From an uncultured Clostridia bacterium (GTDB taxonomy: Bacteria; Bacillota; Clostridia; Oscillospirales; Ruminococcaceae), in contig CANQXS010000008.1 of the NCBI GenBank assembly GCA_947627875.1, positions 82,680-120,863 of the forward strand: a stretch of 38,184 nt of DNA, given 5' to 3'. Positions 13,877 through 37,179 of the stretch are shown here, one piece after another. Position 1 is the first letter of the stretch, and the number at the start of each line of letters is the position of its first letter. Both the position numbers and the translations under genes were made by a program. The notes under the pieces are model-generated. The model had not been told where the DNA came from. It did not search any database and saw nothing but the letters and a program-made list of their open reading frames with translations.

Positions 13877-13952
13877 GGGGTATTAGCGCAGTTGGAAGCG
13901 CGCCACACTGGCAGTGTGGAGGTCACGGGTTCGAATCCCGTATGCTCCACCA
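13877..13952 (+). tRNA. tRNA-Ala (anticodon GGC)
   Basis: A 76-nt cloverleaf including encoded CCA. The acceptor stem is GGGGTAT/ATGCTCC with the G3:U70 pair that identifies alanine tRNAs. The D stem is GCGC/GCGC and the anticodon stem CCACA/TGTGG around loop CTGGCAG, giving anticodon GGC. The T arm is ACGGG-TTCGAAT-CCCGT. The natural terminator no longer follows it. A foreign element starts at the next base and the terminator is now at 16901-16938. Confidence 0.97.
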
Positions 13953-13976
13953 AAGTCACAAGTGGCGAACCTTTTT
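13946..13976 (+). other. attL: tRNA end / element left end
   Basis: Core TCCACCA at 13946-13952 is the 3' end of the tRNA. The inverted arm GCGAACCTTTTT at 13965-13976 is the complement of AAAAAGGTTCGC at 16865-16876 beside the right core. The core and the two arms are what a large serine recombinase site would contain. Confidence 0.75.
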
Positions 13977-14039
13977 GACATGGTAGTTGTCAAAAACGTG
14001 TTCGCGCTTGTCTACCGCACAGCGGTTTATGGCCGCTGA
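13953..14039 (+). other. Severed 3' end of the serine recombinase gene (28 codons plus stop)
   Basis: Continuing the recombinase frame from the core codons CCA-CCA into the left end of the element gives 28 open codons, KSQVANLFDM...FALVYRTAVYGR, then TGA at 14037-14039. A strong terminator follows seven bases later. This is the arrangement expected for the true 3' end of the recombinase gene in the circular form. Here it has no start or promoter of its own beyond tRNA read-through. Confidence 0.75.
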
Positions 14040-14046
14040 AAAAGAA

Positions 14047-14083
14047 GCCCGGAACGGTTCGCCGTTCTGGGCCTATTTTTTTT
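14047..14083 (+). terminator. Intrinsic terminator at the left end of the element
   Basis: Stem GCCCGGAACGG/CCGTTCTGGGC with loop TTCG, followed by CTATTTTTTTT. It lies just after the severed recombinase tail. In the integrated state it terminates the tRNA-Ala transcript, because the tRNA's own terminator was displaced to 16901. Confidence 0.9.
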
Positions 14084-14158
14084 GCGTCCGGCTATCCCCC
14101 TAAGAGGGCCCCTGCCGGACAGATACAGGCGCGGAAAAACTCACCGCAGACGGTAAAA

Positions 14159-14333
14159 CATTTTTCCCCACAGTGGGGAAAAATGCGTCCCACGAGTTTC
14201 CCCGATTTTTCCCCAGCGACACATTGAAGGCAAAAAAGTGGGGAAAAATGACTGCGGCTATTTCGGGCAAAACGGCTTCCTTTTCCCCACATTTTGAGGC
14301 TGTTTCAGCCCAATGTGGGGAAAATCGGAAGCC
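14159..14333 (+). repeat. Three consecutive inverted repeats sharing TTTTTCCCCA / TGGGGAAAAA
   Basis: First: CATTTTTCCCCAC (14159-14171) and its exact complement at 14173-14185 with one base between. Second: ATTTTTCCCCA (14205-14215) and TGGGGAAAAAT (14239-14249). Third: TTTTCCCCACATT (14281-14293) and AATGTGGGGAAAA (14312-14324), extended by GGCTTCC/GGAAGCC outside and GGCTG/CAGCC inside. The shared half-site and changing spacing suggest a multi-site protein-binding region or ssDNA structures. No gene is seen at 14084-14679. Confidence 0.85.
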
Positions 14334-14397
14334 CAGTATAGCCGCGAAAAAGCCGCCCGACGGACACGAAAACAGAAAAACACCCCGCAAGGAAAAA

Positions 14398-14545
14398 GGG
14401 CATAAGGGGCGGCGACACATACTGCGTATGTGCCCGGCATAGCCGGGGTCGCTGTTCCGCCTTGCGGCGGGACACCTCTGCGGCTGCTCGGCAGCCTTGA
14501 GGCCCTTACTGCGCCCCCTGTCGGGACCCGCCCTTGACCGATAAG
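14398..14545 (+). repeat. Cluster of short GC-rich hairpins
   Basis: Successive small hairpins: ACATAC/GTATGT, CCCGGC/GCCGGG, CCGC/GCGG and GGCTG/CAGCC. The block lies between the large inverted repeats and the AbrB-like gene. Such blocks occur near mobilisation origins in Clostridia elements. Here that is only a possibility because no relaxase gene is present. Confidence 0.45.
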
Positions 14546-14606
14546 TTACTGCTCTCGGACAAGCCTCGGAGCATAAAAATACGGAAGCTTCGCCTACGCG
14601 GGCGCC

Positions 14607-14635
14607 TTGAATTTCGCTCTACAGTGTGCTATAAT
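14607..14635 (+). promoter_or_regulatory. Predicted promoter of the AbrB-like gene
   Basis: TTGAAT, exactly 17 nt, TATAAT, about 45 nt upstream of the start codon. Confidence 0.7.
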
Positions 14636-14679
14636 TAAATAATATTCGACAAGACGAAATTTTCGGAGATGATAAGACA

Positions 14680-15147
14680 ATGCCTCAGATGAATAAGGGT
14701 GGTAAATTCATATTTGGGAAATCAATAGTACGGAATGACGGTGTGTTGCAATTCCCGGAGCAGGCAATCCGAGAATATGATATTACAGCGGAGGGCAAGG
14801 TCTATCTGTTCACAGGTAGTAAAAGTACAGGCGGGTTTTGTGTTACAAGGAAAGGTTTGCTTGCCCCGTCTAAGCTCGGACATATACTCTCAGATACACC
14901 AGCATTGCGGGAATACACTGCCAAACCGGGCAGCTTTATCCGATACAAGGGGCGTTTTTATGCGTGGACAACTATCTCTGATGACGGTAAAATTGTGCTT
15001 ACAGATGATATGATGACATTCTTAAAAATTGAGCCGGAAATGAAGCTGTTGTCAATTCGCAGCAGCGGCATTGCCTTTACAATGGGTGCATATGGACGGC
15101 TGGTTGAAGAGTCGATGAAACACGAAAAAGAAATACTCGTGTATTAG
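14680..15147 (+). CDS. Small protein with two AbrB-like repeats, possible element regulator
   Basis: A 155-aa protein that I do not recognise by name. Two halves share a pattern of a beta strand, a DG turn, a strand, an acidic helix and a strand. The first is SIVRNDGVLQFPEQAIREYD followed by ITAEGKVYLFTGS. The second is TISDDGKIVLTDDMMTFLKI followed by EPEMKLLSIRSSGIAF. This resembles the swapped-hairpin SpoVT/AbrB DNA-binding fold, which would make it a transcriptional regulator of the element. That assignment is inference from pattern only. GGAG at 14665-14668 precedes the ATG by 11 nt. It lies 183 bp upstream of the recombinase, with a GC hairpin (AGAGGGGC/GCCCCTCT) between. Confidence 0.6.
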   Translation: MPQMNKGGKFIFGKSIVRNDGVLQFPEQAIREYDITAEGKVYLFTGSKSTGGFCVTRKGLLAPSKLGHILSDTPALREYTAKPGSFIRYKGRFYAWTTISDDGKIVLTDDMMTFLKIEPEMKLLSIRSSGIAFTMGAYGRLVEESMKHEKEILVY

Positions 15148-15330
15148 TAGTACAGTTTCCGCTAATCGCGCAGTAGCACAGGGGCGCGAAGCAGTCAAGG
15201 CATCGGCTCTGCCTCGCCTGCGGCGGCCTTGACAGCCCCGCGCTCCTGCGCTTTATTGTAATCAAGAGGGGCAAGGCCCCTCTTTGGGAACACTTCCCGA
15301 CCCGCATATTTTGAAGAAAGGAGCGCAAAG

Positions 15331-16986
15331 ATGGCAAAAAAATTTGTACAGAACAACAACGATTTTGCGATAGCCTATTACCGCTATTCGTCCCATGCAC
15401 AGTCTGAAGCGTCCATCGAACAGCAGCGCGAAGCCGCCAAAAACTACGCCGACGGCCACGGTCTGCAAATCGTCAAAGAGTACGAAGATGCCGCCCTCAG
15501 CGGCACCACCGACCAGCGCCCCGGCTTTCAACTTATGCTGTCCGAGGTAGGCAAGATACGCCCCGCCGCGCTCATCATCTGGAAAACCGACCGGCTGGGG
15601 CGTGACCGCTATGACCTTGCTATCGCCAAGAAGATAATCCGTGATGCCGGGTGTACCATCTACTATATCGCGGAGCCGATTTCCGGGGACGCGCCGGAAA
15701 CCGCCTTGATGGAGGGGGTGCTTGAATCCATGGCCGAATATTACTCACGACAGTTGCGGACGAATATCAAGCGCGGGCACCTCTACAATGCGCAGAATTG
15801 CCTTTACAACGGCCATAAGACCCTCGGCTATAAGGCAGAGCCCGCGCCGGAATTTGGCAAGGACAGAAAGCGGTATGTCATCGACCCGGAAACAGCCCCC
15901 TTTGTGCAAAAAATTTTCGAGGACTATGCCGCCGGCAGACCGACAGTGGATATTGTAAGAGAACTTAACAGCATAGGGCTGAAAACAGCACGGGACAAGC
16001 CGTTCACAGTCAATTCCATCGCGCACATCCTGAACAACCGCGCCTATATCGGGGAGTACCACTACGGCGATATTTTCAAGCCGGACGGTATGCCCGTCAT
16101 CGTCACGCCGGAACTGTTTGAAGCCGCGCAAAAGCGGCTGATACTGAACAAGCGGCAGGGCGGTCAGCGGGCAAACGGTCTTGACCCTGACAATGCCCCT
16201 CGCTTTTGGCTGACGGGCAAGCTGTACTGCGGCGAGTGCGGCACACCCATGCAGGGCTGCTCCGGCACGTCTAAGACCAACGCCGCGAAGCACTATTATT
16301 ACGCCTGCGGCGCGGCAAGAAAGCACAAATGCCCCTTGAAGTATGTAAAAAAGGACAAAATCGAAGCCATCGCCATTTTTATGCTGACCAAGTGCTTGCA
16401 GGACACGGAGCTGCTTGCCTCGCTTGCCGTTGACGTGGCGGCCTACTACCGGCGGGAGCATGAGGACAAGGGCTACCTTGAGGGGCTGAAAGCGGAGCGG
16501 GCAGAAACCGAGAAAGCCTTGAATAACCTTGTGCGGGCAATAGAGCACGGCATTTTCTCTGAAACCACACAGGCGCGGCTCACGGAGTTGGAGAGCCGCA
16601 AAAAGGCGCTGACGGAGGCTATCGACGCGGAGGAAATCAAACGGGCGATAGCGAAGCACGACATCAGCATACAGCATTTCTTTGACGAGTACGCCCACGC
16701 CGATTTGACCGACCCGACCGTCCGGGATTATCTGCTGGACTACTTCGTAGACAAGATTTTCGTCTTTGATGACCGTGTGATAATGACGATATGGTACGGC
16801 GACGACAAAAAGGAAATCACATGGGGCGACATCGACTTTGAAATCAAGCGGCCACGGAAGCGCAAAAAAGGTTCGCGCGCTTCTGCGTCGTTTCCACCAC
16901 GGCGTCGCAAGCTCCATATCGCTTGTGACGCCCTTTTTATACTTAAATTTCGGGTGTCACCGCTCATTCCGCGCGCATACGCGTAA
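15331..16986 (+). CDS. Large serine recombinase, C-terminus altered by integration
   Basis: 551 aa as read in the integrated state. The N-terminal resolvase domain has the nucleophile in AYYRYSSHAQSEASIEQQ (probably Ser20), then LSGTTDQRPGFQLML and KTDRLGRDRYDLAI with the conserved arginines. A recombinase domain follows, and a zinc ribbon with cysteines at 300, 303, 326 and 334. Next is a coiled coil (about 370-430) and a C-terminal domain. Codons 522-523 (Pro-Pro) are the attachment core. Residues 524-551 (RRRKLHIACD...) are encoded by host terminator DNA beyond the element. In the excised circle the tail would be the 28 residues encoded at 13953-14036, giving again 551 aa. AAAGGAG lies 8 nt before the ATG. 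Confidence 0.93.
   Translation: MAKKFVQNNNDFAIAYYRYSSHAQSEASIEQQREAAKNYADGHGLQIVKEYEDAALSGTTDQRPGFQLMLSEVGKIRPAALIIWKTDRLGRDRYDLAIAKKIIRDAGCTIYYIAEPISGDAPETALMEGVLESMAEYYSRQLRTNIKRGHLYNAQNCLYNGHKTLGYKAEPAPEFGKDRKRYVIDPETAPFVQKIFEDYAAGRPTVDIVRELNSIGLKTARDKPFTVNSIAHILNNRAYIGEYHYGDIFKPDGMPVIVTPELFEAAQKRLILNKRQGGQRANGLDPDNAPRFWLTGKLYCGECGTPMQGCSGTSKTNAAKHYYYACGAARKHKCPLKYVKKDKIEAIAIFMLTKCLQDTELLASLAVDVAAYYRREHEDKGYLEGLKAERAETEKALNNLVRAIEHGIFSETTQARLTELESRKKALTEAIDAEEIKRAIAKHDISIQHFFDEYAHADLTDPTVRDYLLDYFVDKIFVFDDRVIMTIWYGDDKKEITWGDIDFEIKRPRKRKKGSRASASFPPRRRKLHIACDALFILKFRVSPLIPRAYA
16865..16899 (+). other. attR: element right end / displaced tRNA flank
   Basis: The arm AAAAAGGTTCGC (16865-16876) and core TCCACCA (16893-16899) lie inside the recombinase coding sequence. 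They are followed at once by the terminator that originally followed tRNA-Ala. Joined to the left end this gives an attP of about 59 bp whose arms are inverted and whose centre falls in the core. Confidence 0.75.
16901..16938 (+). terminator. Displaced terminator of tRNA-Ala
   Basis: Arms GGCGTCGCAAGC and GCTTGTGACGCC pair over 12 positions (one G-U) with an 8-nt loop, then CTTTTT. It overlaps the 3' coding end of the recombinase in the integrated state. Confidence 0.85.
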
Positions 16987-17052
16987 AAACTCTTTGAGGG
17001 CGAGCAATCAGTCCGAAACGATTGCGAAGCCCGAAAAGATAGCTTTTTACGC
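16981..17052 (+). repeat. Stem-loop element 1 of a covarying family
   Basis: Outer arms GCGTAAAAA and TTTTTACGC, then TCTTT/AAAGA, then an inner hairpin GGGC...CAATC/GATTG...GCCC with GAG and CGAA on the two sides of an internal loop. It resembles elements at 17245, 17330 and 17521 in shape rather than in sequence. Confidence 0.55.
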
Positions 17053-19490: not shown

Positions 19491-20885
19491 ACGGTATTGT
19501 CAAGTATTTTTCGCAAATTCATATAGAATGAAGTAATATTTTTGTGTTATCTCCCTCGGCATGCCGAGGGGCGATTTAATGCTGTGAAGCACTACCTTGG
19601 AATTATTCCGTAGCTTCTTCAAGATATTTCATGCACAAATATCTCTTGCACTCCCAATCCTTGCCGGCAACATATCGCAGCCTCGCACAAACAAGCATTA
19701 AAGCCGAATTACCATCCGGAAATGCACCGACCACCCTCGTCCTGCGCCGAATCTCGCGGTTCAGTCTTTCAATTACGTTGTTCGTGCGGATTTTCAACCA
19801 ATGCTGTGACGGAAAATCCATATATGTAAGCGTCTCTTCAATCCCGTCATCCAGCTTTTTGGCGGCAGCATTGAGTCTCATCTCCTTGAGCTTTTCAACG
19901 ACCTCTTTCGCCTTTTTCCTCGCGGCTTCTTTGCTTTCTTGGGCATGTATTGCTTTCAACATCATCGTTACTTCGCGGAGCCTGTTTCTCGGTACACTTG
20001 ACATAATGTTGCGGTAAAAATGCACCGTGCAGCGTTGGTATTTTGCCTCGGGAAAGACTTCGTGAACCGATTCACACATTCCGAGATTTTTATCTCCGAC
20101 AACAAGCTTAACGCCGTCAAGCCCTCTTGATTTGAGCCATACAAGGAAACTTCTCCAGCTTTCCTTGTCTTCTTTCATTCCTTCAGCCGCACCAATTACC
20201 TCGCGATAACCGTCGGAATCAACCCCTATTGCCACAAGGATGCTCACATTCTCAAACTCCCCGCCCCAGTTTCTTTTGAGGTAAATTCCGTCGATGTAAA
20301 CATACGGATACTTGCCGTGAAGAGGTCTTTGCCGCCATTCTTCGATGTGGACATACGCCTTTTGATTCAGATCGCTGATTGTTGAGGCAGATACCCGACT
20401 GCCCCAAAGTGCTTCGCTTATATCTTCTACTCTGCGTACTGATACACCCGCGAGATACATCTCAATCAAAGCTTCCTCTACAGAGCTTTCGCGGCGGCGG
20501 TATCGTTCAATTATCGCCGTTTCAAACGGTACTCCTTTGAGCTTGGGCACCGATAGTTTCGCGTTACCTGACGTGGTGGTGAGATTTCGGGTATAATGCC
20601 CGCTGCGGTAGCCTTTTCGGGATTCGTTGCGTTCATACTTGCCTGCTCCGGTAAGTTCTTCTGCTTCACTGTCAAGGAGCTCGTTCAAAGTCTCCTCCAC
20701 GCTTTTGCGTACCAAATCTTTCAGTTCGGTCTTGACTGCATTCTCGTTTAATGTTATAATCTTTTCAGACATGTTTCTACTTCCTCTCGAATGATTTGTG
20801 GTTACTTCATTCTACCAGAAGTGCAGGGACATGTCTATTTTTTGCACTAATTTTCTTTTTGCGAAAAATAGTGTACCTTATCTCT
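19491..20885 (-). mobile_element. IS256-family insertion sequence
   Basis: About 1.4 kb with a single transposase gene. Terminal inverted repeats include TATTTTTCGCAAA at 19505-19517 and TTTGCGAAAAATA at 20868-20880. A second inner pair, TAGAATGAAGTAA, faces its complement near 20802-20815. The outer limits are approximate, because the match fades outward and I cannot define a target duplication with confidence. A perfect palindrome (CCCTCGGCA/TGCCGAGGG) lies between the left repeat and the transposase stop. Confidence 0.85.
19603..20772 (-). CDS. IS256-family (Mutator-type) transposase
   Basis: 389 aa, full length for the family. The DDE residues are apparent in YVYIDGIYLKRNWGGE, KLVVGDKNLGMCESVHEVFP and the NNVIERLNREIRRRTRVVGA segment that carries the catalytic glutamate. 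The family signature around CTVHFYRNIM is present. GAGGAAG lies 7 nt before the ATG. No frameshift or internal stop is seen, so it may be active. Confidence 0.96.
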   Translation of the reverse strand: MSEKIITLNENAVKTELKDLVRKSVEETLNELLDSEAEELTGAGKYERNESRKGYRSGHYTRNLTTTSGNAKLSVPKLKGVPFETAIIERYRRRESSVEEALIEMYLAGVSVRRVEDISEALWGSRVSASTISDLNQKAYVHIEEWRQRPLHGKYPYVYIDGIYLKRNWGGEFENVSILVAIGVDSDGYREVIGAAEGMKEDKESWRSFLVWLKSRGLDGVKLVVGDKNLGMCESVHEVFPEAKYQRCTVHFYRNIMSSVPRNRLREVTMMLKAIHAQESKEAARKKAKEVVEKLKEMRLNAAAKKLDDGIEETLTYMDFPSQHWLKIRTNNVIERLNREIRRRTRVVGAFPDGNSALMLVCARLRYVAGKDWECKRYLCMKYLEEATE

Positions 20886-21129: not shown

Positions 21130-21687
21130 TTACTCTAAATTAGCATGGAACATCCAAAGCTTATCCATTTCAATATTTTTCTGCTCGATTATCTGCATTG
21201 CAACTGCGTCTCCAAAAATCAGCAAGGATTGTTCAAATAACGACGTCATAGGCTGGCAAGATTTGACTTCGTCCTCTAAATAAAGCTTTGTCTGCACCGG
21301 AATACGCACCATGTAATCTGCATATTCCTTTATATCCCCACTTGGATTAGAGCCAATATGTACTACCTTGCCGCCGATTTTCTTTGCTTTTTTTGCTATC
21401 GCAACCGGCACTATCGAGCATCCGCTACCTGAGCCGACAATCAAAAGACTTTTATCCGTCATTGCAGGTTCTGTAATATCTCCTACACAGTGTGCGTCAA
21501 TTCCGAGATGACCAAGCCTTTTGGCAAACGCCTCCAACGAAAGCATTACTCTGCCAACACCGGTCAGAAAAACCTTGTCCGACGAAAGAATATCATCTAT
21601 AAGCCTTTCTGTTTGCGTTTTGTCTACAGAATCGAGTGCTGAAGCTATTTCGTTAAGAATCATTTGTATATTCTGCGAATATGTCAT
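21130..21687 (-). CDS. SIS-domain sugar-phosphate isomerase (6-phospho-3-hexuloisomerase / KdsD-like)
   Basis: A 185-aa single SIS domain. FLTGVGRVMLSLEAFAKRLG at about 35-54 and LLIVGSGSGCSIVPVAIAKK at about 80-99 form the sugar-phosphate-binding loops. IGGKVVHIGSNPSGDIKEYA follows, and SLFEQSLLIFGDAVAMQIIE near the C-terminus resembles PHI/KdsD enzymes. These interconvert phosphorylated ketoses and aldoses. The exact substrate is not deducible. GGGAGG lies 8 nt before the ATG. It is 5 bp after the RPE-like gene and is the last gene of the operon. Confidence 0.85.
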   Translation of the reverse strand: MTYSQNIQMILNEIASALDSVDKTQTERLIDDILSSDKVFLTGVGRVMLSLEAFAKRLGHLGIDAHCVGDITEPAMTDKSLLIVGSGSGCSIVPVAIAKKAKKIGGKVVHIGSNPSGDIKEYADYMVRIPVQTKLYLEDEVKSCQPMTSLFEQSLLIFGDAVAMQIIEQKNIEMDKLWMFHANLE

Positions 21688-21692
21688 TAAAA

Positions 21693-22400
21693 TTACCTCC
21701 CAATATTTGATTTGCCTTTTTCAAGCGCTTCATTAACCTTTATAATTGAACCGCCAATATCATTCCTTTTAATACATGTCGTGCCGCCAACATATAAATT
21801 TACACCGTATTGTGGGAAATCCTCCATGTTTTTTAATGAAATCCTGCCGTCTACCTCAACAAGGCAATTTGGATTGCACCTGCTTATCAATTTCTGAAGA
21901 TCCATAATTTTTCTTGCAGCATAAGATACTTGGGACTCGCCTGCGCTTGAAGCATATCCGGGATTTATAAGCATTAATAGAACACAATCGCATTTCTCAA
22001 TGATGTATTCCAACGAACTTATCGGAGTGGAAGGCTTTATTGCTACTCCTGCTCGAATACCGGCGTTGTGAATTTTGTTTATAAGACCGTCAACGTGGTC
22101 GGTCGTTTCCATATGAAAAGCAATCTGTTCTACGCCGCAGGCAATCAATTCATCCACAAAATATTCCGGGTCTTTTGCCATTACATGACATTCAAATGCC
22201 AGTTTTGTTTTTGGTTTCAGCTGTTTGACAAGTTCAAACCCCAACGGCATACTCGGGCTGAAATGACCGTCAAGAATATCTATATGCAATAAATTCACAC
22301 CTGCAGCTTCTAATTCTTTTACTTGATTCAAGACATCTGTCATATCGAGACAGATAAGAGACGGTGAGACCTGAAAAACATCTTTTGAAAATATGCTCAT
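21693..22400 (-). CDS. Ribulose-phosphate 3-epimerase family protein
   Basis: 235-aa TIM barrel. The metal and catalytic residues of the family are visible: His39 and Asp41 in LLHIDILDGHFSP, His72 in ECHVM, and Asp184 in VEVDGRI, with the same spacing as in RPE. The phosphate loop differs from housekeeping RPE: INPGYASSAGESQV replaces the usual PGFGGQ. This suggests a specialised substrate such as another ketopentose or ketohexose phosphate. GGAGG lies 7 nt upstream of the start. It sits between the nucleotidyltransferase-kinase fusion and the SIS isomerase, so its product probably feeds the same pathway. Confidence 0.87.
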   Translation of the reverse strand: MSIFSKDVFQVSPSLICLDMTDVLNQVKELEAAGVNLLHIDILDGHFSPSMPLGFELVKQLKPKTKLAFECHVMAKDPEYFVDELIACGVEQIAFHMETTDHVDGLINKIHNAGIRAGVAIKPSTPISSLEYIIEKCDCVLLMLINPGYASSAGESQVSYAARKIMDLQKLISRCNPNCLVEVDGRISLKNMEDFPQYGVNLYVGGTTCIKRNDIGGSIIKVNEALEKGKSNIGR

Positions 22401-22402
22401 AA

Positions 22403-23974
22403 CTAATCCTCCAAACTATCCGATAGCATTTCCTTGCCCAGTGCCATTAAAACAAGAGAATATGGGTAATGATGAAGACCCGCTATATTAAGATAAATCA
22501 ATGCACACATCAGTTTTACCTTTGCCACATCGTAGCCATTTTTAGCAAGCCAAGAATAATAATAGTTTTCACAATTAACAAGAATTTGTTTTCTGTTGAA
22601 ATCATACCTGATTTCATTTTGATCCCACGAAATCCTGTATTCCTCTTTTGCAACTAATTCATGGCACATGATAAGTCCATGAAGCATTTTGCCCAAGTCA
22701 TAGTAAATATCTCCTGTTGATAATGAATTACCGAAGTTTTGCCTCCAATCCAAGAATTCAAAATCCCCTTTATCAGCATTATATAGAATATTCTCAAAAT
22801 GAAAATCTCCATGAAATTGTCCCGGTAGACCTTTTGCTACATAATCCCAATCAACCTGACGGAGCATATCTTCAACAGACGGATACCATTTGTTATTGAT
22901 AACCGTTGCTTCATCTTTTTTCTGAAATCTTTCAAAGAATAGCTTTACTCTTTCAAAAGTTTTATCCTTATAAAATTTCATACAGCTATTGTAAAACAAC
23001 TGCCTTTCTTCTGCAGAGAGTTCATTTACCTTCCAAAATCTTTTAGAGGTATTGAGCAGCTGCTTGAATATAGGCAAGGAAACACAGCTTGACATTACAT
23101 CTCCCTGGACGTATTCATATGCGTACATATGATCGGTAGCCCCTATGATTGGAGGGACAAAACCCTCAAGCATCTTTGCTCGTTCTACTCGATCCCTTAT
23201 AAACGCTTTGCTGTCAGAAAATTTTATTACCTTGTCATCCATAAACCAAATGGCTTCATTTTCTTTTTCAAGGATATTCGGCCCGCCCTCATTATGAAAC
23301 CTGCGTCTTGTTGCTTGAAGCTCTATGGTGACGCCAGTGTCAAACCAAGTAAATTTACATGCTTTTACAGCCGACATTTTTATAAGGTTTCTTAATCCTG
23401 CCGATTCACCTTGCAATATCATGCTTGGATCCGACTCCATTCCCTTCCAAAACAGATCATAATCATATATACCCGCCAATCCGATATACGGCTTAGGATT
23501 AGAAGTGAGGTTTTCGCCTTTTTCATTGATTGAGATCACATTATCGTCGCTGTCAACAGATACCGTTCTGTATTGCTCTTTGCTGTCTCTTTCATCCCAA
23601 CCCATCCAGTTGTGATCCAACTCGGGGATGCTTTCTATAACAAGAGTATCGCAAGAGCAAAACACAAAAGGCTTTTGAAGATATTCTTTGCAGCAGCTGA
23701 TTGTATATCCAAGTCCCGAGCCCTCTCCCTCATACGGAAAGACATCAACTATTTTTATATTCTTATCCGCGCATGCCAGAGAAATAAACTCTTTTACAAT
23801 ATCACCCTTATAACCGACCGCAATTACATACTCCGTATCTGACGGGAACATGTCCATGATTCTTGTCAGCGTAGGTTTGTTTTCGATGCTGACCAATGAT
23901 TTGTTTAAATATTTTGTTAGTCCTCCCAGCCTTGATCCGGTGCCGGCTGTTGGTATAAACACAGTGTATGCCAT
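22403..23974 (-). CDS. Fusion of sugar-type nucleotidyltransferase and APH/choline-kinase-like phosphotransferase
   Basis: 523 aa. Residues 1 to about 235 are a nucleotidyltransferase with FIPTAGTGSRLGGLTKYLNK at the N-terminus and a catalytic CSCDTL. Residues about 245-523 are a kinase of the aminoglycoside/choline kinase fold: HGDFHFEN at 388-395 (catalytic Asp390, Asn395) and the metal Asp409 in FLDWR. A kinase joined to a nucleotidyltransferase would phosphorylate a free sugar or polyol and then make its NDP derivative. LicA/LicC is a distant analogy. The frame extends 9 codons further upstream, but AGGAGG before the ATG at 23974 (MAYTVFIP) decides the start. Its KdsC-like neighbour ends 14 bp away. 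Confidence 0.87.
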   Translation of the reverse strand: MAYTVFIPTAGTGSRLGGLTKYLNKSLVSIENKPTLTRIMDMFPSDTEYVIAVGYKGDIVKEFISLACADKNIKIVDVFPYEGEGSGLGYTISCCKEYLQKPFVFCSCDTLVIESIPELDHNWMGWDERDSKEQYRTVSVDSDDNVISINEKGENLTSNPKPYIGLAGIYDYDLFWKGMESDPSMILQGESAGLRNLIKMSAVKACKFTWFDTGVTIELQATRRRFHNEGGPNILEKENEAIWFMDDKVIKFSDSKAFIRDRVERAKMLEGFVPPIIGATDHMYAYEYVQGDVMSSCVSLPIFKQLLNTSKRFWKVNELSAEERQLFYNSCMKFYKDKTFERVKLFFERFQKKDEATVINNKWYPSVEDMLRQVDWDYVAKGLPGQFHGDFHFENILYNADKGDFEFLDWRQNFGNSLSTGDIYYDLGKMLHGLIMCHELVAKEEYRISWDQNEIRYDFNRKQILVNCENYYYSWLAKNGYDVAKVKLMCALIYLNIAGLHHYPYSLVLMALGKEMLSDSLED

Positions 23975-23988
23975 TTTATTTTCCTCCT

Positions 23989-24507
23989 TTATACAGTCCA
24001 ATCTCTACTGAAATTTATATTTTCTTCCGGAAGTTTCATCGGATCGTATTTGACAAAAAACTCTTCAAGAATATGAAGGCATGCCTCAGATACGGCTCTG
24101 TCACCGCCGCTTCGCGACGTTATGTATGAAGCGTATTTCTTGGCATTTTCGTCTGCGTTCCCGGTCGCTATTGAATATCCAACCTCACGCATTACATAAT
24201 GATCAAATATGCCGTCTCCCATATATATGACCTCTTTAGGCTCATATCGCTCTTTTATCCAATCAATGCGCTTAATTGTGCTTACAAGCTCAAGCTTAAA
24301 ATGCATATCTTCTATACGTTTATTACTTATTTCAAAGCCTCGCTTGTCTCCTGTAACAAAAACAATATCAAGGTATGGTCTAAGCAATGACAAAGCGTCA
24401 TTGTCGTCTGCACCGAATTTCTTCATTACCTTTCCATCGACGGTATAATAAAACGAACCGTCGGTTAAAACACCGTCAACATCCATAATAAAACACTTTG
24501 GCGTCAT
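23989..24507 (-). CDS. HAD-superfamily phosphatase, KdsC-like
   Basis: 172 aa, the size of KDO-8-phosphate phosphatases (C0 HAD with no cap). FIMDVDGVLTDG carries the nucleophile Asp9 and acid Asp11. VFVTGDKRGFEISNKRIEDM is motif II, and VIYMGDGIFDHYVMREVGYS with ITSRSGGDRAVSEACLHIL matches the KdsC C-terminal half. It should dephosphorylate a sugar phosphate. No KDO synthase (KdsA) or CMP-KDO synthetase is present and the host is Gram-positive, so KDO is unlikely. AAGGAGG lies 7 nt upstream. First gene of the terminal four-gene set. The 158 bp before it hold no gene. Confidence 0.88.
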   Translation of the reverse strand: MTPKCFIMDVDGVLTDGSFYYTVDGKVMKKFGADDNDALSLLRPYLDIVFVTGDKRGFEISNKRIEDMHFKLELVSTIKRIDWIKERYEPKEVIYMGDGIFDHYVMREVGYSIATGNADENAKKYASYITSRSGGDRAVSEACLHILEEFFVKYDPMKLPEENINFSRDWTV

Positions 24508-24665
24508 GTTGCTCCTCCTTGTTATTTTTCTTCTGCAATTATTGTTTTCAATTTTTGATAAACATAGAAAAATACTCTTATATTATAAACAAAGCCTCCT
24601 TTGGTAACAGCGCATACAAATTACGCGCAGGTAAATACTCATCTCAAGCATCCGATTATTTTAAA

Positions 24666-25877
24666 TTATATCTGCTCCTCCTTGTTTTTACTTATCAGCG
24701 CTAATGATTTCAAATCATTAATAAAGTTTTTGGCAACCTCCTCCTGATTAAAATGCTCCCGCACAAAGCTTTCCCCCGTTTTGGCGATAGCTTTTACTTC
24801 TTCTGTATGATTCATACAATAGTGGATCGTATCAATCAATCCGTTCATAGTGCCGTCATAAGAGATATAATGAACGCCGGGAATAAGACCTAAATCACGA
24901 TAATACTGTGCATCTATACCAATATATGCCGTTCCGCAAGCCATTCCTTCGACAAATCCGATTCCGGGCATTCCGACGAGCTCTTCCGGGCAAGCAAAAT
25001 AAAGGTATTCATTAAACTTTTCAACCATATCAAACGATTCGTATTTTCTCTGCGTCCATATTGAATGTTTGTTTTTCCAGCTCTTATATTTTTTTACAAT
25101 AGCCGAATCCGTGGGATTTATTGCAATCTTGTCCTCAAAAATATATGAAATGTAAGAATCCATTTCCTCAGGATATTTATCGGCATTTTCAAATATTTCC
25201 TTTCTCATTATTTGAATCCACTCGGTTTTAAACATTTCGCGATAAAGCTTATAGCCTTTATTGCCTTTGCAGGTAGACAGAGTTCCAACCGCAAACAGCT
25301 TGTTTTTTCTGCTCAGATTCTTGTTGCAAAATCTCTCGGCAAATGTATAAGGACATGTAATCATCTTAATGTTATCGTGCTTTATATATCTGTTTACAAA
25401 ATCGTTATTGTCAAGATTTATTTCTGAAACAAAAGCCTCCACTCCCCACTTTGTTAAATCCATCGATTCGTTTATGGCAACAAAATGGTTGGACATTAAA
25501 ACTTTATGACCGGGAAGCTCGGCAATAATATTTCGTGTCAATTCGTCAAAAAAGTATCCTATTACAATATCATCAGACTTTATTTCCTCCGTTTTGCCGA
25601 TAATATTTATATTTGTACTTGGAAAATTTTTCTTCAAGACGTATTTTGCCTCATATTTAGCGATTGTTTTTTTCCCAAACACTTTAGAAAGATATTTTGC
25701 TCCTCTAATTTCATATCCCCTTCCCGTAACATAGTTGCAAATCGGGATTCCTTCTTTAAGCGCATAGTCAATAAGAAATCTATGCTTTGCTTTTACAATT
25801 TTGTCATCTACTTTGAGCATAGAGTATGTTCTTACAAGAAAATTAATCCTATGCATATCTACTATTACTATTCTCAT
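24666..25877 (-). CDS. Glycosyltransferase, GT-B fold
   Basis: 403 aa and divergent. The C-terminal half has the GT4-like donor-binding layout at 297-322: PEELVGMPGIGFVEGMACGT, then AYIGID. A preceding FAVGTLSTCKGNKGYKLYRE (about 195-214) sits where GT4 enzymes begin the second Rossmann domain. The N-terminal half (MRIVIVDMHRINFLVRTYSM) is poorly conserved. There are no membrane segments, so it is cytoplasmic or peripheral. It probably adds one sugar of the repeat unit. AGGAG lies 8 nt upstream, within the end of the wzx gene (5-bp gap). Confidence 0.78.
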   Translation of the reverse strand: MRIVIVDMHRINFLVRTYSMLKVDDKIVKAKHRFLIDYALKEGIPICNYVTGRGYEIRGAKYLSKVFGKKTIAKYEAKYVLKKNFPSTNINIIGKTEEIKSDDIVIGYFFDELTRNIIAELPGHKVLMSNHFVAINESMDLTKWGVEAFVSEINLDNNDFVNRYIKHDNIKMITCPYTFAERFCNKNLSRKNKLFAVGTLSTCKGNKGYKLYREMFKTEWIQIMRKEIFENADKYPEEMDSYISYIFEDKIAINPTDSAIVKKYKSWKNKHSIWTQRKYESFDMVEKFNEYLYFACPEELVGMPGIGFVEGMACGTAYIGIDAQYYRDLGLIPGVHYISYDGTMNGLIDTIHYCMNHTEEVKAIAKTGESFVREHFNQEEVAKNFINDLKSLALISKNKEEQI

Positions 25878-25882
25878 TTACT

Positions 25883-27346
25883 TCACTCCTCACGTTTATT
25901 GATTGCTTTTATCTTTGCTCTGATATTATTGAGCATTTGCATAATAAATCTGTTTTTTTGCGCAATAAGCAACGCAAAATACACACATCCCCCGATAGCA
26001 GCAGAACACAAAAGTCTGAGCAATTCATTTTTAACAATCGCTTTTACGCAAATGATTACAAAAAGCAATCCTAAGCATGCCACAGATGACTGAGCTAATG
26101 AAACAAAAGACTTAGCTGAAAAAGCATCTTTCTTAATGAACGGAATTGAAATTATCGTTATTAAAATTTGTGACGCCAATGTTGTACACGCTGCCGCTTC
26201 AATACCAAATAGCGGAATGAAAATAATGTTTGATACCAAATTTACCACTGATGCTGTTACACAGATCAGTAAACAAATTTTATCCTTCCCGGATGCGAGT
26301 AAATTAGCATTAAAAGTACAGTTACTTGCTGAACCGGCTATCAATGTAACAGATAATATTTTTAAGCATCCCTCCGCGTCCAAATAACCGCTTCCTCCGG
26401 CTAAGATTATAATCTCTTGACTCAGAGTAAACATACCAATAACGCATGGCAAACATACTATAACGGAAAAATCCAAAAAATAGTTCAAGATGCGTTTATA
26501 ATCCTCCGAATGGTTTTGCGCAAAGGCAATACTCAGCTGAGGAAGTGTTACTACAAAAATCGAACACGCTATTTGATTTATCACATTATAAATCTTGATT
26601 GCAGCAGAATATAACCCGACCTGATAATCCCCTAAAGTCAACCCAATAATTGTGGTGTCGCACATCGTAAATATCTGCTGTGCCAAAAGCATCGCAAAAA
26701 GCCCTAAGATAGGCGGCAGATGTTTTTTAAAATTACATTTTAAAGTAAATTTGGTTTTACAGTATTTTCTGCGATAAACCATATTCATAATGTTGCCGCC
26801 GCTTGATGATAAAACAGTTATTACAGCATAGTTGATATAATCATTTGGCTCACGCACAAAGATAAACATCAAGATTACGGATAGCACTTGGAAAGCTACG
26901 GTTCTTATTGTGATATATTTGAAATCCTCCATAGCCGTATTGAGCCAGTCCGCTCCCAAAGTCGCAAATAAAACCGACATGCTTTGTATCATAATCAGCA
27001 ATCTGTAATCGCGGAGCTTTCCGTATAGCAAAAGGAGTACAGCCAATACGAGATATGCAATAACGGTTGTAAACAAATTAATTGATAATATCTCGCCGGA
27101 TAGCTTTCCGAGCTCTTCCCTATCGTTTTTAACCTTTGAGCATTCTCTTATCGCATAGGTCGTAACGCCGAGAGTAGCGAGCAAAGATATATAGCCTACT
27201 ATTGAATTTCCAAAGTTTATCTTGCCTATATTATCCGGCTGCAAAACTCTTGAGATATACGGGAAGGTAATAATAGGAAACAGAATTGTAGAAGCAGTTT
27301 TAATTATGTTATAAACAGTATTTTTCTTGATGCTTGCGCTGCCCAT
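25883..27346 (-). CDS. wzx: Wzx-type polysaccharide flippase
   Basis: 487 aa of the MATE/polysaccharide transporter superfamily with about 12-14 hydrophobic segments. The N-terminus KNTVYNIIKTASTILFPIIT then FPYISRVLQPDNIGKINFGN is a characteristic polysaccharide-synthesis (PST) signature. Expected to flip undecaprenyl-PP-linked repeat units across the membrane. Start ATG with GGAGAG 6 nt upstream, inside the end of rmlD. The base after its start codon belongs to the rmlD stop codon. Codon and base use is AT-richer than that of the adjacent rml genes. Confidence 0.93.
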   Translation of the reverse strand: MGSASIKKNTVYNIIKTASTILFPIITFPYISRVLQPDNIGKINFGNSIVGYISLLATLGVTTYAIRECSKVKNDREELGKLSGEILSINLFTTVIAYLVLAVLLLLYGKLRDYRLLIMIQSMSVLFATLGADWLNTAMEDFKYITIRTVAFQVLSVILMFIFVREPNDYINYAVITVLSSSGGNIMNMVYRRKYCKTKFTLKCNFKKHLPPILGLFAMLLAQQIFTMCDTTIIGLTLGDYQVGLYSAAIKIYNVINQIACSIFVVTLPQLSIAFAQNHSEDYKRILNYFLDFSVIVCLPCVIGMFTLSQEIIILAGGSGYLDAEGCLKILSVTLIAGSASNCTFNANLLASGKDKICLLICVTASVVNLVSNIIFIPLFGIEAAACTTLASQILITIISIPFIKKDAFSAKSFVSLAQSSVACLGLLFVIICVKAIVKNELLRLLCSAAIGGCVYFALLIAQKNRFIMQMLNNIRAKIKAINKREE

Positions 27347-28231
27347 TTAAATCTCTCCAATAAAAACTTGAAGTGTTTTTCTCCAATCAGGCATTTGATG
27401 TTTTATGTTTTTATGTATCTTTTCCTTGCTCATCCTGCTGTTTTTCGGTCTCCTCGCCTTGCTAATTCCGTATTCCTCAGTCGTTACGGGAATGACCTTC
27501 GTATCCTTCCCCGCAACGCGGAAAATCTCTTCGGCAAAATCAGCCCAGCTTATATATCCGCCCTCGTTCGTTCCGTGGTAAACGCCGTATTTATCCGTCT
27601 CGCACATATCCACAAGCAGCCTCGCAAGGTCGGGAGTATAGGTTGGCGTGCCGATCTGGTCGTTCACAACGCGCACTTCCTTATGCGTCTCGGCAAGCCT
27701 CAGCATTGTCTTGACGAAATTGTTTCCGTGGCTGCCGAAAACCCAACTCGTCCTTACTATGTAATACTTTTCAAGCGCCTTTTTGACCGCAAACTCACCC
27801 TCAAGCTTCGTTTCACCATAGTAGTTGAGAGGTGCAAAGTCCTCACAGTCGGGCTCCCACGGCTCTGTTCCCTCGCCGCTGAAAACATAGTCGGTCGAGA
27901 TATAGATCATCTTGCAATCTGCTTCTTTACACGCTTCCGCGATATACTTCGTTCCCAAAACGTTGATTGCATAGACCTTCGGCTTGTTTTCCTCTTCCTC
28001 GGCAGCGTCGACAGCAGTCCACGCGGCGCAGTGAACAACCGCGTCGGGCTTTGTTTTTGTAATGACACCGTGAACCGCCTTTTCGTCAGTAATATCAAGC
28101 TTTATGTATTCGCAGTCCTGTTCAAAGCTGTCCGAAATGTCGGTCGCAATCGGCTCATAGTTGCGCTTTTTAAGCTCTAAAATCATGTCCCAGCCGAGCT
28201 GACCGTTAGCGCCTGTAACTAATACTTTCAT
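27347..28231 (-). CDS. rmlD: dTDP-4-dehydrorhamnose reductase
   Basis: Last step of dTDP-L-rhamnose synthesis, NAD(P)H-dependent. It is 294 aa from the chosen start. MKVLVTGANGQLGWDM is the nucleotide-binding start. The SDR catalytic residues are Thr/Tyr in YISTDYVFSGEG and the YGETKLEGE (YxxxK) motif, and IVRTSWVFGSHGNNFVKTML is an RmlD hallmark. A longer frame begins at 28249. I use 28231 because AGGTGAG precedes it and family members start MKxLVTG. It begins 4 bp after rmlB. GC content is clearly higher than in flanking wzx and glycosyltransferase genes. Confidence 0.96.
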   Translation of the reverse strand: MKVLVTGANGQLGWDMILELKKRNYEPIATDISDSFEQDCEYIKLDITDEKAVHGVITKTKPDAVVHCAAWTAVDAAEEEENKPKVYAINVLGTKYIAEACKEADCKMIYISTDYVFSGEGTEPWEPDCEDFAPLNYYGETKLEGEFAVKKALEKYYIVRTSWVFGSHGNNFVKTMLRLAETHKEVRVVNDQIGTPTYTPDLARLLVDMCETDKYGVYHGTNEGGYISWADFAEEIFRVAGKDTKVIPVTTEEYGISKARRPKNSRMSKEKIHKNIKHQMPDWRKTLQVFIGEI

Positions 28232-28235
28232 CTTC

Positions 28236-29255
28236 TCACCTGTTGCCATACATCTTTTCGTAATAGTTTTGATACTCTCCGCTTATGATAGTTTCCCACC
28301 ACTCTCTGTTGTCGAGGTACCATTTAATTGTCTTCTTAATTCCGTCCTCAAACTTAGTTTCGGGGAGCCAGCCGAGCTCGGTATGGATCTTAGTCGGGTC
28401 AATCGCATACCGCATATCGTGACCCTTGCGGTCGGTGACGTATGTGATGAGGCTTTCGGGCCTGCCGAGCTCTTTGCAAATCAGCTTGACGATGTCTATG
28501 TTTTTCATCTCGTTATGCCCGCCGACGTTGTATACTTCGCCTTCTCTGCCCTTGTGAATAATCAGATCAATCGCCTTACAGTGATCCTCTACATAGAGCC
28601 AGTCGCGGACGTTTTCGCCCTTGCCATAGACAGGTAAGGGTTTATCGTTCAGGCAGTTGGCGATCATCAGCGGGATAAGCTTTTCGGGGAAATGGTACGG
28701 CCCGTAGTTGTTCGAGCAGCGGCTGATTGTGACAGGCAGTCCGAAAGTTCTGTGGTATGCCAGAACGAGCAAGTCGGCACTTGCTTTTGAAGCACTGTAA
28801 GGACTTGATGTATGTATAGGGGTTTCCTCTGTAAAGAACAAATCTGGTCTGTCAAGAGGAAGGTCGCCGTATACCTCATCGGTGCTGACTTGATGATAGC
28901 GCGTGATACCGTACTTGCGGCAGGCGTCCATCATTACCTGCGTGCCGAGGATATTTGTCTGCAAGAAGACCTCGGGATTCTCTATGCTGCGGTCAACATG
29001 AGATTCAGCCGCGAAATTCACGACGATGTCAGGGTGTTCCTCCTCGAAGAGAGCATAAACGCCTTTTCTGTCGCAGATATCTAACTTCACGAACCTGAAA
29101 TTCGGATTTTTCATCACAGGTTCAAGCGTGGAGAGATTGCCCGCATATGTAAGTTTGTCTAAGCAGATGATGCGGTAGTCGGGGTATTTTTTGAGCATAT
29201 GGAAAATGAAATTTGAGCCTATGAATCCCGCGCCGCCGGTTACTATAATTGTCAT
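28236..29255 (-). CDS. rmlB: dTDP-glucose 4,6-dehydratase
   Basis: Second step of dTDP-rhamnose synthesis. It is 339 aa. The NAD-binding motif is TGGAGFIGSNF, with catalytic STDEVYGDL and YSASKASADLLV (Tyr/Lys). SRCSNNYGPYHFPEKLIPL and NVRDWLYVEDH are also RmlB signatures. GAGGTG lies 5 nt upstream of the start. It is 2 bp after rmlC. Part of an unbroken rmlA-C-B-D block. Confidence 0.98.
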   Translation of the reverse strand: MTIIVTGGAGFIGSNFIFHMLKKYPDYRIICLDKLTYAGNLSTLEPVMKNPNFRFVKLDICDRKGVYALFEEEHPDIVVNFAAESHVDRSIENPEVFLQTNILGTQVMMDACRKYGITRYHQVSTDEVYGDLPLDRPDLFFTEETPIHTSSPYSASKASADLLVLAYHRTFGLPVTISRCSNNYGPYHFPEKLIPLMIANCLNDKPLPVYGKGENVRDWLYVEDHCKAIDLIIHKGREGEVYNVGGHNEMKNIDIVKLICKELGRPESLITYVTDRKGHDMRYAIDPTKIHTELGWLPETKFEDGIKKTIKWYLDNREWWETIISGEYQNYYEKMYGNR

Positions 29256-29257
29256 AA

Positions 29258-29815
29258 TTACACCTCAAAAGTTATTTTTGATTCGCTGAGCTTCGGGTGG
29301 TTTTTGTCCTTCTCGCTCAGGATTATTTCGCCCGCATCGGGCCATTCTATGCCGATTTCGGGGTCGTTCCACATGATTCCGCCTTCGTCCTCGGGGTGAT
29401 AAAACTCGTCGCACTTATACGCAAACTCCGCAGTCTCGGACATCACGACAAAGCCGTGCGCAAAGCCCCTCGGCACCATAAACTGACGCTTGTTTTCCTC
29501 ACTGAGAACTACTCCTACCCACTTGCCGTAGGTCTTGCTTCCCTTTCGCAGATCTACTGCAACGTCGAATACTTCGCCTTTCAGAACGCGCACAAGTTTT
29601 GCCTGCGGATATGTTTTCTGAAAATGAAGTCCGCGAAGTACGCCCTTGCGGCTGCTCGACTGGTTATCCTGAACAAACGTATAATTCAACCCTGCCGCTT
29701 TAAAGTCGGCTTCATTATAGGTCTCCATAAAGTAGCCGCGGTTGTCGCCGAAAGCCGTCGGTTCGATTATGTAAACGCCCTCGATTTCGGTCTTGATGAA
29801 GTTGAATTTGCCCAT
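29258..29815 (-). CDS. rmlC: dTDP-4-dehydrorhamnose 3,5-epimerase
   Basis: Cupin epimerase of dTDP-rhamnose synthesis, 185 aa. FVQDNQSSSRKGVLRGLHFQ contains the catalytic-region histidine, then KLVRVLKGEVFDVAVDLRKG and FMVPRGFAHGFVVMSETAEF follow in family order. Its start overlaps the rmlA stop by one base. Confidence 0.97.
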   Translation of the reverse strand: MGKFNFIKTEIEGVYIIEPTAFGDNRGYFMETYNEADFKAAGLNYTFVQDNQSSSRKGVLRGLHFQKTYPQAKLVRVLKGEVFDVAVDLRKGSKTYGKWVGVVLSEENKRQFMVPRGFAHGFVVMSETAEFAYKCDEFYHPEDEGGIMWNDPEIGIEWPDAGEIILSEKDKNHPKLSESKITFEV

Positions 29816-30699
29816 CAGTACACCAACTTTCCCTCGGCTACGTTTTTGAGATGCTGTCCATACGGCGATTTCCCGTACTTTTCGGCGCTTTTAAGCAACT
29901 CGTCCTTTGTTATCCAGCCGTTCTTATAGGCAATTTCCTCGGGAGCGGATATTTCAATACCTTGACGGTTTTGAATCATCTTAACGAAATCCGTTGCCTC
30001 TGCAAGACTGTCCATAGTTCCTGTGTCGAGCCAGGCAAAACCTCTGCCCAAAAGCTGAACATCTAAAAGTCCGTCGCTTAAATACATCTCGTTGAGCGTT
30101 GTTATTTCAAGCTCTCCTCTTGCCGAGGGCTTGACCTGCTTTGCTTTTTCCGTAACGCCCGCGGGATAGAAATACAAGCCCGTCACAGCATAGTTTGACT
30201 TCGGATTTTTAGGCTTTTCTTCGATACTGATTGCCTTTCCCTTTTCATCAAACGCAACCACGCCGAAGCGTTCGGGGTCAGGAACGTAGTAGCCAAAGAC
30301 GGTTGCCCTGCCCGATTCAGCGTTCACGACAGCTGCTCGCAAAGACTTGCTGAAACCGTTGCCGTAGAAGATATTGTCGCCCAAAACCATAGCGCAGGGC
30401 TCGTCCCCGATGAACTCCTCGCCCAGAATAAACGCCTGAGCAAGACCGTCGGGAGAGGGCTGGACTTTATAGCTGAAGTGCACGCCGTAGTCTGACCCGT
30501 CGCCCAAAAGACGCTCGAAGTTTGGCAGGTCTGTTGGTGTCGAAATAATGAGAATGTCCTTTATTCCTGCTAACATAAGCGTGGATAAAGGGTAGTAGAC
30601 CATGGGTTTGTCGTAAATCGGTAACAACTGCTTTGAGGTTACCATTGTCAACGGGTAGAGCCGGGTGCCACTGCCGCCGGCGAGGATTATGCCTTTCAT
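29815..30699 (-). CDS. rmlA: Glucose-1-phosphate thymidylyltransferase
   Basis: First step of dTDP-rhamnose synthesis, 294 aa. The signature [20 protein letters not shown] is at the N-terminus. [20 protein letters not shown] and [17 protein letters not shown]-type residues follow (here [18 protein letters not shown]). The C-terminal helical region includes [27 protein letters not shown] lies upstream. The start overlaps the acetyltransferase stop by 4 bp (ATGA). Confidence 0.98.
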
Positions 30700-31325
30700 T
30701 GTTTGCTCGTCCTTTCAATTTTTTGGGGTAGCCAAGACAAATCCGTATCTTCCGTCACCGGTTCATACAGCTTGTCTATATTTTTCTCGACCGTCTCTTT
30801 ATCCAGCTTTGAATAGTCAATTTTCATCAGCTTTTCTATTATTTCTGGCGTAAATCTGTATTTAATGACCTTTGCCGGCACCCCGCCAACAATCGCATAC
30901 GGGGGAACGTCCTTCGTAACAACTGCGCCCGCTGCAATTACGGAGCCCTGTGATATATGTACGCCGGACATTATTGTCGCACCATAGCCTATCCAGACGT
31001 CGTCATCTACAATGATATCGCCTTTTGTGACGCCCTCATATTTCCCTCTCAAAGTCTGTACAAAAAAAGGGTAGGTAGAGATATGATCTAAATAATGATC
31101 AGCGCTTAAAATAAACGCAACCTCTGGAGCTATCGAACAATAATTTCCGATGGAAAGTCTGGTTTTTTCATCATGGGTGAGCACATTTAACCCACCATAG
31201 GTTCCTTTTCCAACAGAAACTAATTGTGGAAAAAACATACATAATGGCAACGTTTGATTTTGAGGATTCCTTTTTCTCCACTTTTTTGAAAAAAACTTAA
31301 TCTTCGCTTTAGAAATCAGTCCCAT
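30696..31325 (-). CDS. CatB-related O-acetyltransferase (hexapeptide repeat)
   Basis: 209 aa, left-handed beta-helix acyltransferase of the xenobiotic-acetyltransferase/CatB group. The catalytic histidine lies in [36 protein letters not shown] then [20 protein letters not shown] and [16 protein letters not shown] are the coil and tail signatures. Probably O-acetylates a sugar of the polysaccharide. GGGGGA precedes the ATG. The 171 bp upstream hold no gene. Confidence 0.9.
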
Positions 31326-31496
31326 TTCTAATTCCCCCTGAGTATTAAAGCGACTAGCACGTTTCCGAAAGCTCGAGAGTAATCATCTTGACATCTTTGA
31401 TTCGTCTCAAAAATATCTACTGTATGCGTGCAGGTCAAATAGAAAACATCCTTTTCATATTTAGCTTTTGCACTCCTTAAATCATTTTATATGACG

Positions 31497-32663: not shown

Positions 32664-32779
32664 ATGCCTCTCCCTATTTTGCCAGCGTTCGCTCATAAAA
32701 TAATTGTGAATGTATGATATGTGCTATTGCTCTGAATTCCCGATTGCTATGCAATTACATGTAACAAAATATAATATCT

Positions 32780-34048: not shown

Positions 34049-34124
34049 ATGTCCTCTTTTCCAATGCATCCCAGGTATTGTTGCTCATCTCAAACACATG
34101 ATGCAATTTAAATATGAAGATAAA

Positions 34125-37168: not shown

Positions 37169-37179
37169 CTTTACACTTC

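Follow-up and report, generated by a model that had tools for sequence, protein, structure and literature searches.

A small element behind a Ruminococcaceae tRNA-Ala gene appears to exchange the C-terminal tail of its large serine recombinase upon insertion

The DNA analysed here, called the window, is a stretch of 38,184 nucleotides (nt) from an uncultured Clostridia bacterium of the family Ruminococcaceae (assembly GCA_947627875.1, contig CANQXS010000008.1, forward-strand positions 82,680 to 120,863). Directly behind a tRNA-Ala(GGC) gene, and followed by flanking host DNA, lies what is very probably a small integrative element (13953-16899, ~2.95 kb). It would consist of a large serine recombinase (LSR) gene and one cargo gene, carry its attachment site attP within the last LSR codons, exchange the C-terminal tail of the recombinase upon insertion, and possess a native tail that functions in the circular form. 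The two states of the gene and their terminators are established by comparison with related loci. All of the evidence is comparative, and the sources of the compared sequences include metagenome-derived genomes.

The host tRNA-Ala(GGC) gene occupies 13877-13952 on the plus strand (Rfam RF00005 match to 13949), as do the gene parts described next, and its last 7 bp, TCCACCA (13946-13952), are the left copy of the core (attL). The right copy (16893-16899, attR) ends the LSR body of 523 codons (15331-16899), whose protein matches PF00239, PF07508 and PF13408 (Resolvase, Recombinase and zinc ribbon), all above cut-off, and so has the complete LSR domain set. As read in the integrated state the gene spans 15331-16986 and encodes 551 amino acids (aa), of which codons 524-551, beginning RRRKLHIACD beyond the core, and the stop codon are supplied by a host repeat (16900-16986). 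When the frame is joined through the core to 13953 it reads instead into the native tail, KSQVANLFDMVVVKNVFALVYRTAVYGR, which is 28 codons long and ends with TGA at 14037-14039 (13953-14039 in all); the circle-form LSR is therefore also 551 aa. An intrinsic terminator belonging to the native gene follows (14047-14080, stem 14047-14072) and now stands downstream of the tRNA. These 28 open codons, the TGA and a hairpin terminator 7 nt later had been proposed from the sequence in an original prediction and are present as described. The longest words common to 13930-13990 and 16860-16990 are 7 bp, TCCACCA and CCTTTTT, the latter off the junction. A 7-bp match by itself is weak evidence for a junction, and it is the homologues that fix its position.

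Loci are designated below by L numbers and genomes by G numbers. Twelve LSR loci make up the homologue set. The nine that extend as far as the core agree with the window LSR through TCCACCA and then diverge into eight distinct continuations, which bears out the proposal that attP lies inside the recombinase gene and that integration swaps its C-terminus. The common continuation and flank belong to L014 and L015, both of which are frameshifted just upstream of the core; the L016 LSR has a frameshift near residue 50. The sequence RRRKLHIAC is shared by L009 (genome G028) only, because this locus uses the same tRNA-Ala site beside a similar flank. Closely related LSRs occupy different targets: proteins 96% identical are found at tRNA-Ala(GGC) (window, L009) and tRNA-Ala(CGC) (L010), and proteins 92% identical at tRNA-Ala(CGC) (L012) and at transfer-messenger RNA (tmRNA; L013). 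Fifteen tRNA-Ala sites of the same genus (L025-L034, L036-L040) were examined as candidate empty sites; their trailers differ and they were not used. The G017 tRNA-Ala site holds a reversed LSR, and the G022 trailer looks the same. No close LSR relative was confirmed in viral contigs. The right flank of L012 (11570-11680), read by hand, resembles the left end of another LSR element, with an attP-like arm and an open frame ...IIYVTGNLFVLVCPLASAMDK, which suggests tandem elements at one tRNA-Ala.

The native tail also occurs outside the window. Relatives are present in eight places (L009, L010, L012, L013, L042, L083, L084 and L086), with a decayed copy in L044, so that the homologue comparison favours the tail at 13953, and not RRRKLHIACD, as the native C-terminus. 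Five LSR loci contain most of the gene and 5 kb or more ahead of it, and in four of these (L009, L010, L012, L013) the native tail lies at the far end of the element; the other four places were located by DNA or tail search. In seven places the tail starts, with AAA or AAG, directly behind the TCCACCA of a recognised tRNA or tmRNA: tRNA-Ala(GGC) in the window and L009, tRNA-Ala(CGC) in L010, L012 and L083, and tmRNA in L042 and L013. The tails of L084 (578-705) and L086 (78-205) do not stand behind a recognised tRNA end. They are diverged, the contig stretches read hold no intact LSR of the family, and of a decayed LSR copy L086 retains just the final ~23 codons; both are likely remnants. Of 394 genomes sampled from the order, 5 have the tail (E ≤ 0.001), and tblastn found no match to the exact window tail in phage or plasmid records (E up to 1).

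The other half of the exchange concerns the right flank. Repeats like that at 16900-16986, which begins CGGCGTCGCAAGC, stand directly behind tRNA-Trp (L126) and tRNA-Ser (L128) called by ARAGORN. Inspection by eye adds to these positions a tmRNA 3' end (L119) and a further tRNA end (L127). Codons 524-551 are thus host DNA, as had been supposed. No tRNA was recognised at 7 of the 11 repeat copies read, and L120 looks like another LSR gene end. At some places in the genus the repeat (window, L118-L128) comes right after tRNA-type ends in CCA or GCCA; it resembles a terminator and could itself be a mobile sequence.

The same exchange is found in other lineages, including phages. The LSR ends of the Faecalibacterium phages Lelie and FP_Toutatis are near-identical. 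In Lelie the gene lies in mid-record and reads through attP into a native tail, HLAHQQANYSLYAASGYFSLVEHQFSARLWRTA. In FP_Toutatis it lies at the start of the record; its last residues, VRVARIELTAS, come from antisense tRNA-like sequence, and DNA 99% identical to the Lelie-type tail is found near the opposite end of the record. Lelie may be read as free phage DNA and FP_Toutatis as a prophage. Dulem virus 37 (a circular record) and the IMG/VR contig L105 have a complete attP inside the LSR gene and a common tail. Their relatives L106-L108 end in short, differing tails, the host-like end of L109 is longer, and L110 is without the CCA core. In G003 a tail at tRNA-Ala was noted from its likeness to other tails, and the contig also has, at a distance of ~57 kb, an LSR whose reading frame through the core is that of the tail. 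Two of the three frames are open there, so openness by itself proves little; the end of the tail, MVGG-IVLTYQL, recurs in the G015 tail in another phase. No LSR was found in the stretches read of L131, L132 and L134, and only G003 was completed.

Several further observations concern this wider group. The GenBank LSR protein of FP_Toutatis (MG711462.1, L092) ends in host-coded residues, and that of FP_Epona (MG711466.1, L094) probably does so too. Some LSRs of the group are oppositely oriented (L099, 4413-4809; L094; L175), and their 3' ends read into antisense tRNA or tmRNA. G286, with an LSR 38% identical, was considered as a third case with both ends and was withdrawn, since the sequence that follows its tRNA-Val is present again past the LSR (L137). 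All three frames behind this tRNA-Val are open for at least 31 codons, and the sequence is probably a host trailer. That the tail is an assembly artefact is unlikely, as it recurs across separate assemblies and several genomes and the same arrangement is seen in phage records and IMG/VR contigs.

The left arm and core of attP lie inside the LSR gene (16870-16899, plus strand), with GGTTCG at 16870 and GTTC 23 nt before CCACCA. The mirror motif CGAAC (13966-13970, plus strand) lies in the right arm, which is formed by the first ~18 nt of the native tail, and the site measures 47 bp end to end, centred on the core. The statement that the open frame has no other explanation at 13953 was too strong, since the right attP arm occupies these ~18 nt and hairpins form in the tail DNA as well. 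The attP sites of Dulem virus 37, L105 and Lelie span 47-48 bp, and in Lelie the tRNA-like half (GTTC, 23 nt, GGACCA) is on the opposite strand. In the window tRNA-Ala the GTTC of the T-arm is at 13929, only 18 nt before CCACCA, and this spacing from the end is found in all seven tail-bearing tRNA and tmRNA genes checked. A set of 27 related LSRs was chosen by similarity of the C-terminal region, as the best-scoring 28 loci from the 88 of 394 genomes with a match, less L074, which has no open reading frame (ORF). Nineteen of the 27 have GTTC exactly 23 nt before NN[A/G]CCA near the 3' end, against a mean of 0.34 and a maximum of 3 in shuffles of 3-base blocks. None of 30 control LSRs, the best-scoring PF07508 matches among those listed for six genomes, has GTTC at 23 nt. 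The core six-mers (CCACCA, GCACCA, TCACCA, CGACCA, GTACCA, GTGCCA) vary as tRNA ends do.

Serine integrases bind a motif at positions 16-24 in attP, and in attB this motif is moved 5 bp towards the centre (PMC3783163). Spacings of 23 and 18 nt reproduce this published shift of the zinc-domain (ZD) motif. Probably, then, the tRNA T-arm serves the clade as one half-site of attB, and in the window the T-arm and CCA end of tRNA-Ala(GGC) would make up the left half. We infer that the LSR zinc domain reads GGTTCG in attP and that the attB counterpart is the T-arm GTTC. The situation differs from that treated in the ZD report, in whose main text the word 'tRNA' is absent (PMC3783163, 2013), in that the attB motif is a tRNA T-arm and belongs to one half-site. 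Targeting of tRNA genes is described in one paper as typical of tyrosine integrases (PMC6109161), and the main text of Durrant et al. 2022 (PMC10083194) contains no occurrence of 'tRNA'. A literature search did not find the use of a tRNA T-arm as attB half-site by a serine recombinase stated; it covered open-licence papers only and is weak evidence of absence.

Is the native tail maintained as protein? Nine related tails, giving 36 pairs, were compared by codon. Differences at codon positions 1, 2 and 3, summed over the pairs, number 162, 58 and 282. The ratio of nonsynonymous to synonymous differences (pN/pS) is 0.36 overall, ~1.0 for codons 1-10, which hold the attP arm, and 0.26 for codons 11-28. 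L012 and L013 differ at seven sites in codons 11-28, all of them silent, and none of 5000 randomisations is as low. The single internal indel of the alignment is an in-frame deletion of exactly one codon, and an unpaired linker, GTC TAC CGC ACA (Val-Tyr-Arg-Thr), changes almost only at third positions, with exceptions in L083 and L084. Tails across lineages have a polar start and a hydrophobic stretch in common; the native tail is perhaps a hydrophobic beta-hairpin.

The most serious rival explanation is that the tail is passive, no more than the 3' end of a gene running across attP, that conservation concerns DNA or RNA, namely the right attP arm, the hairpins and the terminator, and that the enzyme is unaffected by the exchange. 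The tail DNA does fold well below its own shuffles (z -4.1), and the host-coded tails are free in length and sequence, so the integrated enzyme seems tolerant. Against a passive tail stand the third-position changes in the linker, the low pN/pS past the attP arm, the indel of one whole codon, and the hydrophobic tail of ~30 residues that is retained in frame with the LSR in other lineages. This explanation is rather unlikely, and both layers of the tail, protein and DNA or RNA, seem from these alignments to be constrained.

A number of results weigh against a native tail that is exchanged on insertion and functions in the circle. Two tail hairpins (30 pairs) have 95% of their cells paired in the nine sequences, and two pairs are compensated. 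The nine tails are related, so that the pooled pN/pS overstates their independence. The pairs window-L042, window-L083, L084-L086 and L042-L086 give no significant codon signal, and window-L086 gives one only beyond codon 10. In a structure prediction of the native L105 enzyme the tail has a predicted confidence (pLDDT) of ~23, which is uninformative, and no fold search was made. L015, with 8.5 kb upstream of its frameshifted LSR, has no tail match. A circle junction was not found among 297 genomes of the family, where only its two separate halves occur, in the window's own genome, nor was it found in viral contigs. The states assigned to Lelie and FP_Toutatis are read from the place of the LSR in each record. 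The exact 23-nt motif was not scored in 8 of the 27 LSRs: four have GTTT or TTTC variants (L066, L070, L071, L081), two are without any (L062, L069), and L076 and L079 have the motif and count as misses since read-through moves it outside the scanned region. The right half of attB, by eye, is without a conserved arm, so that T-arm recognition accounts for one half-site only, and the combination of inverted attP arms with the 5-bp ZD shift was found for the left half of attB alone.

Insertion also exchanges terminators. The terminator scan as a whole gave 8 hairpin sites of this kind, against 5.2 ± 2.5 in shuffles. Two of the hairpins, that with a T-run past the native stop (14047-14072) and one in the host repeat (16901-16932), are much more stable than shuffled versions of themselves (z -4.4 and -7.2). 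The tRNA now has the recombinase terminator and the recombinase the host one, as had been claimed, with the addition that the host terminator precedes the host-coded stop codon (16984). In a survey of 17 usable rows, those among the 19 motif-bearing loci for which the same motif was picked (L064 and L072 were dropped), the host-coded tail is 1 to 81 codons long, the length for L078 being a minimum as it runs off the locus. The survey picked the wrong motif for L012, L019, L020, L062, L064, L072, L076, L097 and L109. Given this range, the equal length of the two window forms, correctly noted, is a coincidence, and the identity of the host tail appears to be of little weight; loss of the native tail is the one constant.

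Where the host terminator comes first, the integrated-state mRNA may in some copies be without a stop codon. It could be argued from this that the exchange mainly silences the integrated enzyme, the transcript ending before an in-frame stop and the protein being tagged by trans-translation. The window and 8 of the 17 survey rows have this order, but the other 9 have either the stop ahead of the terminator or no called terminator, so that a terminator before the stop seems to reflect where the element landed rather than a conserved device. We regard silencing as the main effect as improbable.

Each element has one LSR and apparently one cargo gene, different in every case, and in this resembles a one-gene cassette. 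The window cargo ORF (14680-15147, plus strand) encodes 155 aa; those of the other elements encode 588 aa (L009, 7470-9236), 244 aa (L010, 9065-9799), 322 aa (L012, 8693-9661) and 562 aa (L013, 8023-9711). No Pfam family was over cut-off in the four cargo ORFs scanned, that of the window included, and blastp among the five gave no convincing match, the best being 23 aa of a signal-peptide-like start shared by L009 and L012. By eye, these two ORFs have lipoprotein-like starts. Between the native terminator and the cargo ORF is a hairpin-rich module with repeated TTCCCCAC motifs (14081-14640, no strand assigned), which is conserved in L009, L010 and L042 and mostly not in L083. No gene was recognised in it; short translated frames match between elements, as the module DNA is conserved. 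A small conserved gene, including one for a recombination directionality factor (RDF), could lie in this module, or an RDF could act in trans. Several inverted repeats of the module are built on TTCCCCAC/GTGGGGAA, and it could be an origin or transfer site.

The cargo ORFs are not convincingly related, and the exchange itself may help to set the direction of recombination. In the strong form of this idea the tail is a direction switch: the native-tailed enzyme of the circle integrates, the tail-less chromosomal enzyme excises, and no dedicated RDF is needed. This strong form is a distinctly speculative proposal, which we consider doubtful. ssrA-like degradation tags end in small nonpolar residues. 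The native tails mostly end in charged or polar ones (YGR in the window, SRS/DRS in Dulem virus 37 and L105, TRK in Shimadzu, QND in G003, RTA in Lelie) and the circle is the state in which the integrase is most needed, so that a degradation or inactivation tag rendering the circle form unstable and the host-tailed form stable is not supported by the tail ends and is the least probable explanation, despite a geometry like that of gp33 of mycobacteriophage BPs, with attP near the 3' end and the tail lost on integration (PMC4557955).

The arrangement is best accommodated by an element whose attP lies in the LSR gene and whose tail is exchanged on insertion. As the sequence comparisons show, insertion behind a tRNA or tmRNA splits the gene at TCCACCA, the body reading on into adjoining DNA, and leaves the native tail, stop and terminator at the far end, directly behind the tRNA. 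The T-arm motif would let close relatives use tRNA-Ala(GGC), tRNA-Ala(CGC) or tmRNA. The native tail would be made from the circle only, would be silent once inserted, and may be kept by selection for a task in the circular state, such as integration or enzyme stability. The terminators would insulate both genes, the element's ending the tRNA transcript and the host's ending the recombinase transcript, sometimes ahead of the stop codon. The elements must still leave, so the host-tailed form would have to be capable of excision, for which the native tail is then probably not needed, or else a recombinase is supplied in trans.

That integration can exchange the C-terminus of an integrase has, as such, already been published. 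In streptococcal rumA integrative and conjugative elements (ICEs), which have a serine integrase, integration swaps the 3' parts of the gene and alters the sequence and length of the C-terminus, and the two forms may differ in function according to the authors (PMC4701971, 2016). The window element is like these in having the att site inside the serine integrase gene, the exchange here following from comparative evidence. It differs from them, as conjugative elements that target the protein gene rumA, in its tRNA and tmRNA targets and its ~2.95-kb size, with an LSR and a 155-aa ORF. Passages of the rumA report on these elements describe no selection test on the native tail (PMC4701971). In the DsiB islands at ssrA of Dehalococcoides the serine recombinase gene always overlaps att at its 3' end and the C-termini diverge there (PMC3146451, 2011). 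Full function in the circle only was suggested, with exchange given as a possibility; the overlap, the diverging C-termini and the tmRNA target are all shared with the present group (PMC3146451). Myxophage Mx8 (Magrini et al. 1999, as cited in PMC4701971) also has attP inside its integrase gene, and replacement of 112 C-terminal residues by 13 makes the integrated form less active, but its integrase is of the tyrosine type. BPs likewise has attP inside a gene and loses a C-terminal tail on integration; there it is the repressor gene that is split, and its tail is an ssrA-like degradation tag (PMC4557955), whereas here the integrase is split and its tail ends YGR. As far as searched, the new points are codon-level selection on the tail, the Lelie/FP_Toutatis pair, the spread of attP-in-gene through the group and the 23/18 rule for tRNA targets.

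Elsewhere in the window are a transposase-like ORF (19603-20772) and a long run of minus-strand genes (21130-38178), which, judged from their sequences, look like polysaccharide biosynthesis genes.

The detached tail shows codon-level selection and is found in a wider group, to which the sequenced phages Lelie, Toutatis and Dulem virus 37 belong, and its function is therefore testable. LSR proteins of the group that are read from chromosomes can carry the wrong C-terminus, as in Toutatis and probably in Epona. With the 23/18 rule, both attP and attB could be predicted from nothing but the gene, and the targeting of tRNA genes by a serine recombinase would have an explanation. If the tail were a direction switch, then together with T-arm recognition it would make the element a self-contained cassette able to move among the tRNA genes of many species.

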